A stretch of DNA of 64,000 nt from Kineosporiaceae bacterium SCSIO 59966 (GTDB lineage: Bacteria > Actinomycetota > Actinomycetes > Actinomycetales > SCSIO-59966), in the NCBI GenBank assembly GCA_020881835.1, contig CP052876.1, positions 2,728,001 to 2,792,000 on the forward strand, written 5' to 3'. The position numbers and the translations under genes were made by a program. Under the pieces are notes generated by a model, which saw nothing but the letters and a program-made list of their open reading frames with translations, was not told the origin of the DNA and did not search any database. Each line of letters begins with the position of its first letter. Position 1 is the stretch's first letter. Of this stretch, positions 12,657 through 43,104 are shown piece after piece.

Positions 12657-13225
12657 GTGATCATGCAATCCCGCCACCCCACCCCTTCCGTGATCATGCA
12701 ATCCCGCCACCCTGCCCACCCTCCCCGTGATCATGCAATCCCGCCACCCTGCAGCGTCACCAATTGCCTGCACAATGCTGAGCTGGCGGCACGACACGCC
12801 GGAAAACATGAAAGAAACCCAGCATTCTGCTGACGGACGCTGAGGCTCCCCGCGAGTCCACCGGCTCACCTAGGTGGTTGTCATGTCCAGAATGATCCGA
12901 CCGGGACTACGGAGTGCGGCACGTACGGAACCAAGGCGTGGTCATCCCAGAGCCACGCGTGATGAGTCGTTACGCGCCGTCCTCAGGAGGACAGCGTCCC
13001 CAGCAGCGGACGTGTGCGCCAAGACACTTGGCGGCAGGGGGGCGGACCGCAACAATCGCCTGAGTCCCCTCCGGCCACTCAGGAACTACGCCGCAAATGA
13101 GCAGGACCGAGAGCGTCGGACCATCACTACAGAAACGTACAGCATTTTGCGATGCAAACCTCGGGTACGGGTGGCGGGATTGCATGATCACGGAGAGGAC
13201 GGGGGTGGCGGAATTGCATGATCAC
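12657..13225. repeat. 22-nt repeat cluster 1 (3 forward, 2 reverse copies)
   Basis: Copies of a 22-nt motif (core TGATCATGCAATCCCGCC, preceded by G and followed by ACC) occur forward at 12657, 12690 and 12727. Reverse-complement copies occur at 13170 and 13204; the last has one change (GGAATTGC). Inside the arms sit GCACAATGCTG (12770), 21 nt after the innermost forward copy, and CAGCATTTTGC (13140), 19 nt before the first reverse copy, making the whole block symmetric. CAGCATTCTGC also occurs at 12820. A second cluster of the same kind lies at 42.6-43.1 kb. Confidence 0.9.
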
Positions 13226-13360: not shown

Positions 13361-13975
13361 TCAGTCCCCTACTTTACCGGCAGCGGCCTCGGTCGCCTCA
13401 GCCGCGGCCTCGGCGGTCTTGGCGGCGGACGTCGCGGCGCCCTTGGCGGCCGTCCTGGTCGCCGCGGCACGCTTGCGAGTGGTCCTCGCCGTGCGCTTGG
13501 CCGCCGCCTGGGTGCCCGTGGTACCCGTGCGCGTGGTCCGCCGTGCCTGCTCGGTGGCCTCGCCGGCCTCCCGGGTCGCGGTCGTCACCGTGGCCTTGAC
13601 GGCGGTCTCGACGTCCTCGGCGCCCCGACGCACTGTCGTCACGGCGGCCTTGGTGCGGGACACCGCCGTCTTGCCCTGGGCGAGCAGCTCCTGGGTGGCC
13701 CGCTGGTGGCGGATACGCTCGACGAGCCTCTTGCCGCGCTCAGACAGGCCCTCGTAGGCCTCCTCGACCCGCCCCGCGGCCTCCAGGCCCTTGGTGATCG
13801 CGAACGTCGGCGCGTGCTGCACGCGGTCGGACACCTTGCCCACCTCGAGCTCGGCCCGGACCTTCGCGGCGCGGGCCTGCGCCTCGCGCAGCCGCTCGAC
13901 GGCCAGGTCCGTGACGCCTACGACGGCGTAGCCGGTGTCGGCGGCGGTCTTCTTGATCTCGTCGGTGATCGGCAT
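13361..13975 (-). CDS. Heparin-binding-haemagglutinin-like protein
   Basis: A 204-residue, highly charged helical protein. The N-terminus MPITDEIKKTAADTGYAVVG, the VTDLAVERLREAQARA helix and the ERGKRLVERIRHQ helix match the coiled-coil half of actinobacterial HBHA-like proteins. The C-terminal ~80 residues are a Lys/Arg/Ala/Thr-rich tail (TARTTRKRAAATRTAAKG and similar). In mycobacteria the corresponding tail binds heparan sulphate and the protein also associates with lipid droplets; adhesion should not be assumed in a free-living species. The ATG lies 1 nt after the stop of the XRE gene, matching the Rv0474-Rv0475 arrangement of Mycobacterium. Two hairpins follow the gene. Confidence 0.8.
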   Translation of the reverse strand: MPITDEIKKTAADTGYAVVGVTDLAVERLREAQARAAKVRAELEVGKVSDRVQHAPTFAITKGLEAAGRVEEAYEGLSERGKRLVERIRHQRATQELLAQGKTAVSRTKAAVTTVRRGAEDVETAVKATVTTATREAGEATEQARRTTRTGTTGTQAAAKRTARTTRKRAAATRTAAKGAATSAAKTAEAAAEATEAAAGKVGD

Positions 13976-41631: not shown

Positions 41632-42633
41632 GTGAACGACGTCCGGATCACGACCCCCGACCACCTGGCTCCCGAGGACGTCGAGGCGGTCACCGCCCTG
41701 GTGGCCGCCGCCGCCGCGCAGGACGGCGCCAGCCCGGTGTCGGAGCACACCGAGCTCGCCCTGCGCCGGGGCGGGGACGGGCTGCGGCAGGTCCTCGCGC
41801 GCGCCGGCTCGGACGTCGTCGGCTGGGCGGGCGTCACCGGCGGGGGCCATGCCACCGGCGGGGACGATGCCACCGGCGGGGGCCATGCCACCGGCGGGGA
41901 CGATGCCACCGGCGGGGACGATGCCACCGGCGGGGACGGCGCGTCGGCCGAGGTCGTCGTCCACCCGTACCACCGCCGGCGAGGGATCGGCCGCCGGCTG
42001 GTGACCGCCGTCCTGGACCACGGGCCCCGGACGCGGTTCTGGGCCCACGGCGACCTGCCGGCGGCCCGGGCACTGGCTGCGGCCCTCGGGCTGGTGAAGG
42101 TGCGCGAGCTGTGGGTCATGCGCCGCCCGGCGACCGACCCGCTGCCCGACCTCACCGTGCCGCCGGGGGTGCGGCTGCGCGCCTTCCGACCCGGTCAGGA
42201 CGACGACGCCTGGGTCGCGCTCAACGCCGCCGCCTTCGCGGAGCACCCGGAGCAGGGCGCGATGACGGTGCGGGACCTGCGGGAGCGGATGGCCGAGCCG
42301 TGGTTCGACGCCGACGGCTTCATCGTCGCCGAGGACGCCGCGACCGGGGAGATGCTCGGGTTCCACTGGACGAAGACCCACCCCGCCGAGGGCGACCAGC
42401 GGCCAGTCGGAGAGGTGTACGTCGTCGGGGTGGCCCCCGCGGCACAGGGGCGGGGGCTCGGCCGGGTGCTCACCCTCGCCGGGTTGCACCACCTGGCCCG
42501 CCATGGTCTGGAGGAGGTGCTGCTGTACGTCGAGGCGGACAACGACCCCGCCGTCCGGGTCTACTCCGGCCTCGGGTTCACCCGCTCCTCCGCCGACGTC
42601 CAGTACGCCCACCCCCTCCCCACCCCTCGGTGA
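41632..42633 (+). CDS. mshD: Mycothiol synthase
   Basis: A 333-residue tandem-GNAT protein that acetylates Cys-GlcN-Ins to complete mycothiol, the main low-molecular-weight thiol of actinobacteria. The C-terminal, catalytic GNAT half has [40 protein letters not shown] and [17 protein letters not shown], all characteristic. The N-terminal GNAT half is interrupted at residues 70-105 by six hexapeptide repeats ([12 protein letters not shown]) encoded by 18-bp units. The GTG start was chosen by homology. The stop codon TGA lies in the first copy of the 22-nt repeat cluster that follows. Confidence 0.92.
41839..41946. repeat. 18-bp minisatellite within mshD
   Basis: Six 18-bp units (GGCGGGGACGATGCCACC and the variant with GGCCAT) in frame, encoding ([12 protein letters not shown])x6. 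Units alternate D and H types before two D types and a degenerate end, so the array grew by duplication of a two-unit block. Confidence 0.92.
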
Positions 42634-43104
42634 TCATGCAATCCCGCCACCCCCTCCCCACCCCAGCCCCCGCCCCCCTCGGTGATCATGCAATCCCGCC
42701 ACCCCGGAACACGTCCACATCGAGACGAGGTCGTATGACCGCCCCATGGCCCCACCTCGACCGCGTCGGCGAGAGCAGATGGACCCTCGCGGCCTTGGCA
42801 GGTCTGGCAGGTCTGGCAGCTCTGGTGACTCTGGCGGCGCTGGCGGCTCCGGCGACCCTGCGACGCTGGGCCCGCTCTCGGTCACGGAACTCGTTCGCGC
42901 GCGGGGTCCGCCACGGCCTAGCCGGCATGTCGCGCCCCGAACGCAGCATTCTGCGGGCCGGCCGCGGGGCCACGAGGCCCTGTGCGAGGTGGCGGGATTG
43001 CATGATCACCGAGGGGAGCGGGGGGGTAGGGCGGCAGGGGTGGCGGGAATGCATGATCACCGAGGGGGTGGGGGCGCGCAGGGTGGCGGGATTGCATGAT
43101 CACC
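42630..43104. repeat. 22-nt repeat cluster 2 (2 forward, 3 reverse copies)
   Basis: Forward copies of the same motif as in cluster 1 begin at 42630 and 42682; reverse copies begin at 42988, 43039 (one change, GGAATGC) and 43083. CAGCATTCTGC, the box found in cluster 1, lies at 42944, 33 nt before the first reverse copy. The first forward copy provides the mshD stop codon. The cluster fills almost the whole gap between mshD and ppk1. Confidence 0.9.
42704..42987. other. Central segment of repeat cluster 2, no supported gene
   Basis: The frame of ppk1 is open through this segment from an ATG at 42735 and would encode a hydrophobic Leu/Ala-rich stretch ([16 protein letters not shown]), generated by short GGTCTGGCA repeats. 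No family match or ribosome site was seen, and the frame crosses the reverse repeats, so it is not called. The region probably contains the ppk1 promoter. Confidence 0.4.

Follow-up and report, generated by a model that had tools for sequence, protein, structure and literature searches.

A high-copy family of mosaic intergenic repeats in the chromosome of Kineosporiaceae bacterium SCSIO 59966

Short repeats that face one another across an intergenic region may be a mobile element, a set of protein-binding sites or the two sides of an RNA structure, and the question raised by one such block (locus 1) in the chromosome of Kineosporiaceae bacterium SCSIO 59966 is which of these it represents. A preliminary description of the block, made from its letters, had proposed all three. 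The genome consists of one contig of 3,095,448 bases, and the window, meaning the whole stretch of 64,000 nucleotides that was analysed, corresponds to bases 2728001-2792000. The repeated unit, here termed M, is the 21-mer GTGATCATGCAATCCCGCCAC.

Locus 1 and its copies across the chromosome

The three forward and two reverse motif copies first reported at locus 1 are present and face inward across 423 bp, four of them exact and one with a single mismatch (Table 1). An 18-mer of the motif occurs 10 times in the window against 0.01 expected, a number reached in none of 100 shuffles. The accessory boxes inside the two arms are also present, GCACAATGCTG lying 22 nt inside the left arm and CAGCATTTTGC 20 nt inside the right arm (formerly given as 21 and 19), and the centre is less GC-rich than its surroundings, as had been noted (about 57-68% versus about 73-75% outside). 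Taken alone, the box is weakly significant (4 matches versus 1.0 expected). The pairing of the two boxes across the block has to be revised: the left box does head a complete structure, but its nearer partner, CAGCATTCTGC, had been overlooked and completes a 61-bp core, while the right box is the half-core remnant of a right-hand core whose GGTTGGTGGCGCGACACGCC part is missing beside it. A second element of the same type spans window positions 42630-43103. Downstream of locus 1 (window 13361-13975) lies a gene for a small protein without a Pfam match.

Table 1. Positions of repeat modules of locus 1 and of the second element in the window
Feature	Position in window	Strand	Remarks
Locus 1, M copy 1, left arm	12657..12677	+	exact GTGATCATGCAATCCCGCCAC
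Locus 1, M copy 2, left arm	12690..12710	+	exact GTGATCATGCAATCCCGCCAC
Locus 1, M copy 3, left arm	12727..12747	+	exact GTGATCATGCAATCCCGCCAC
Locus 1, core, complete, 61 bp	12770..12830	+ orientation	end boxes GCACAATGCTG (12770-12780) and CAGCATTCTGC (12820-12830); alignable to 65 other genomic cores
Locus 1, box CAGCATTTTGC, half-core remnant	13140..13150	-	GGTTGGTGGCGCGACACGCC part missing
Locus 1, M copy 4, right arm	13171..13191	-	exact
Locus 1, M copy 5, right arm	13205..13225	-	one mismatch
Second element, M copy	42630..42650	+	motif search of window
Second element, M copy	42682..42702	+	motif search of window
Second element, partial core	42923..42953	- orientation	partial
Second element, M copy	42989..43009	-	motif search of window
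Second element, M copy	43040..43060	-	one mismatch
Second element, M copy	43083..43103	-	motif search of window

The preliminary description had staked its reading on the motif recurring elsewhere and on a fixed relation between motif and box. A search of the 3.1-Mb chromosome allowing up to 3 mismatches recovered 432 copies of M (210 on the + strand and 222 on the - strand), whereas the reversed sequence, used as a control, gave 0. Among the matches listed, exact copies are found throughout 0-1.51 Mb with the strands about equally represented, so that a check for origin-to-terminus polarity found none there; further copies occur in the window and in the stretches sampled from the second half of the chromosome. 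Because the copies are so widely spread and the strands nearly balanced, the suggested role in partition or replication control is unlikely. About 386 kb of the genome was sampled more closely in 63 stretches, four of which, each 20 kb long, were chosen regardless of M, and 186 of the 232 copies sampled are exact. Neighboring copies less than 900 bp apart in these stretches are arranged ++ in 59 cases, -- in 62, +- in 34 and -+ in none (p = 1e-10). The strand switch is thus inward at all 34 two-armed loci, which fits the original term "extended inverted repeat" and provides terminal inverted repeats, a feature of MITEs.

Module structure of the elements

Each arm carries one to six copies of M, with the consensus CCCYCTYS-GTGATCATGCAATCCCGCCACCC and, including its surroundings, CCCYCTYS-GTGATCATG...CCGCCACCC. 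Information content is high across 23 bases (M plus CC), weak in the 8 Y-rich bases upstream and near background elsewhere. Per-site divergence is 1.4% for M (98.6% identity) and 15% for the core, and linkers are near background; this extreme conservation relative to its own surroundings speaks for M being recognized as a sequence, presumably by a protein. M spacings range from 23 to 130 bp and show no clear helical phasing. Inside arms the modal spacing is 37 bp, and the linkers of that class appear conserved as judged by eye. Some arms are bordered on the outside by a related repeat, GTGATCAGTCGAAAATCCCCTC.

The second module is a core of 64 bp (CAGAATGCTGGGTTGGTGGCGCGACACGCCG...CAGCATTCTG) with an imperfect palindrome at its ends, of which 66 copies were aligned. 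The relation between motif and core is a fixed one genome-wide, so that the original reading withstands both of its refuting conditions: 60 of the 66 cores lie on the inner side of an arm in a fixed orientation, and the gap to M most often measures 21-25 nt (about 40 of 61). A third module, a tail of ~105 bp, follows the core in some copies (about ten) and terminates with TTCATGCAATCCCGCCAC, part of M. Two-armed elements have a modal inner offset of 113-120 bp, five having only 29-40 bp; most arms in this genome are at least 113 bp apart, solo arms occur, and many intergenic regions contain one arm only. At the 34 two-armed loci, whose element ends are imprecisely known, a search for target-site duplications found no direct repeats above the level of shuffled flanks. 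In one sampled stretch (L075 6098-6541 and 10140-10546, near 646.6 and 650.6 kb of the genome) units of M and core form tandem arrays that repeat about every 131 and 129 bp, each with four or five M copies in near-identical units.

The core consensus folds with -38.5 kcal/mol, which is the observation in favor of a structured non-coding RNA in which the core would form a three-way junction closed by the M arms. The pairs of the 66 cores show no covariation, however (212 broken cells versus 208 in shuffled alignments; 10 double changes versus 11), an Rfam scan returned no match, and there is no strand preference, solo arms in tandem regions being sense in 14 cases and antisense in 17. The RNA reading offered at the outset is therefore unsupported and very improbable. 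A single M with its flanks folds with -0.9 kcal/mol and forms no stem.

Genomic placement and turnover in relatives

Nearly all sampled copies of M are intergenic (230 of 232), only 2 lying deep in genes. Intergenic regions bearing M are convergent in 29 cases, tandem in 44 and divergent in 6, compared with 6, 30 and 21 in the unbiased stretches; these counts are approximate, as genes were called within this analysis by codon usage, and the M stretches had been picked for M while the baseline stretches had not. Convergent regions are in excess (p = 0.0006) and divergent regions depleted (p = 5e-5, Fisher), and placement is biased to the 3' ends of genes.

Relatives were sought in 396 genomes of the order Actinomycetales. 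Several near-exact copies were found in only one of these, the MAG G015, and a looser pattern recovered G015 again together with a genus of another family (g7), placing related elements in two other Actinomycetales families. The seven other genomes searched from the g7 family contained no copies, and outside the order there was one single match among 120 genomes of the class. Neither the exact motif nor the core pattern occurs in the viral contigs searched, and blastn of the M-core-M unit against plasmids and phages gave no match. In six species of g7, GTGATCATG(N5)CCGCCAC occurs 108, 61, 30, 11, 6, and 4 times, usually in pairs that form short-looped hairpins and have the same convergent geometry; the hairpins are near-perfect (e.g., -56.5 kcal/mol), and the arms of a pair agree in 28 of 38 cases versus 15.4 expected. 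In G015 (L067, L068, L071, L106), other core-like hairpins (GCGACGTTCT...AGAACGTCGC), constituting a different core module, lie beside degenerate M arms.

The family to which the Kineosporiaceae genome belongs comprises that one genome, so evidence on presence and absence comes from g7, where turnover is shown, and any movement in the genome itself is presumed. Within a syntenic 11-kb segment of g7, G100 has an element at site A, which is vacant in G142 and G156. At site B of this segment, the hairpins of G142, G006, and G086 differ in their stems, G156 has half a hairpin, and G114 has none.

Both the position of M 3' of stop codons and between convergent genes, and the near-perfect, co-varying hairpins of g7, are what one would expect of transcription terminators acting in both directions or of hairpins at mRNA 3' ends. 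Such a function is nonetheless improbable, as arms in the Kineosporiaceae genome mostly lie at least 113 bp apart and are single in many intergenic regions, solo arms are divided between sense and antisense, a U-tract terminator sought at locus 1 was not found beyond chance, some orthologous sites are without any hairpin, and identity over 21 letters is unnecessary for a terminator.

Comparison with known repeat systems and interpretation

The closest architecture is that of the neisserial mosaic elements (NIMEs), in which dRS3, a tag of ~20 bp present in almost 700 copies, is combined with RS modules of 30-160 bp in arrays of 200-2700 bp and doubles as a phage integration site (PMC3898611). 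Both systems build intergenic arrays from modules and a conserved tag of ~20 bp in hundreds of copies, but the sequences are unrelated, the host phylum differs, M is strictly inward-facing, and dRS3, unlike the non-palindromic M, is bounded by 6-bp terminal inverted repeats of its own. M and its modules do not match the tag ATTCCC(N8)GGGAAT plus RS modules, and the likeness is thus one of mosaic architecture rather than membership.

REPs are short extragenic repeats that occur by the hundreds, as inverted pairs between tandem or convergent genes (PMC3733652; PMC1525189), are known targets of insertion sequences (PMC1525189), and include a CGTC group without a RAYT transposase (PMC3733652). A REP survey leaves Actinobacteria unmentioned, and within a limited literature search few such families seem to have been described in this group. 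M resembles REPs, which are extragenic repeats of 20-40 bp, and also REPINs and BIMEs, in its copy number, its near-absence from genes, its inverted pairing, and the insertion sequences associated with it. It differs in that REPs are palindromic and form stem-loops, in having no unpaired GTAG or CGTC tag at one end, and in that RAYT (Y1_Tnp, PF01797) was found in 0 of 8 carrier genomes, the present one and seven relatives, with positive controls. Membership in the REP/REPIN class thus fails on three of the features tested (self-palindrome, tag, and RAYT). Pneumococcal BOX elements contain a variable number of modules in direct order, not in mirrored arrays. They are likewise modular small interspersed repeats, judged mostly parasitic (PMC3049150), but have no sequence relation to M.

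The family is real and distinct, and of a mosaic-repeat kind already known. Locus 1 is probably one copy of such a high-copy intergenic family, similar to NIMEs, BIMEs, and REPINs, with M recognized by a candidate sequence-specific protein. Turnover at orthologous sites in g7, the high and uneven copy number, and the mosaic structure argue for dispersed, probably non-autonomous DNA, and in this sense the earlier term "mobile cassette" fits. The elements would be spread in trans, M being retained through recognition by a candidate recombinase, transposase, or integrase, and arms would lengthen and shrink via tandem duplication. The relatives, with their simple inverted pairs of M, likely show the ancestral form, to which the core may later have been added between the arms in the Kineosporiaceae genome. 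Against this interpretation, no mobilizing gene was found for the family, RAYT is missing in the eight carriers, and solo arms exist. The preliminary interpretation as a whole is partly supported.

M is also better kept than decaying mobile copies should be, which makes a host function conceivable. A protein-binding array is possible for M, given how much better it is preserved than its surroundings, and M might be the binding site of a nucleoid, topoisomerase, or chromosome-organizing protein, its clusters acting as functional arrays at gene 3' ends, comparable to gyrase on some E. coli BIMEs. The sharp borders of M amid random linkers and diverged cores, together with the enrichment between convergent genes, would suit this idea, as would the lack of arm-to-arm covariation within loci beyond chance (p = 0.15), which suggests that every copy is maintained by virtue of its own sequence. 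This host-site reading is unlikely, given the variable spacings without clear phasing, the copy number of 4 to 108 among g7 species with sites gained and lost, and the core and tail modules, which it does not explain. Somewhat tentatively, M could instead be the site of a candidate actinobacteria-specific DNA protein, a recombinase or chromosome-organizing factor, that both spreads and uses the inward arrays, which would make this a mosaic-repeat system with neither RAYT nor a palindromic tag. With a near-perfect tag amid decay, a strict orientation rule, and copy numbers from 4 to about 430, the family offers a clean system for finding the tag recognizer and could show why bacterial genomes retain mosaic repeats.

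The elements also look like landing sites for insertion sequences, which would land between arms because these sites may be dispensable. Transposase genes of the rve-type/IS3 (L075), ISL3 (L077), and DDE_Tnp_1_4/IS1380 (L088) types and, as judged by eye, an IS110-like gene (L053) lie between M arms, four different types in all, and look like separate insertions. In g7, a short element with terminal inverted repeats of ~20 bp (GAGCCTGTTGCGAAAT...) is seemingly inserted in a copy of M in G100 (L096 1309-1530), with GATC on each side.
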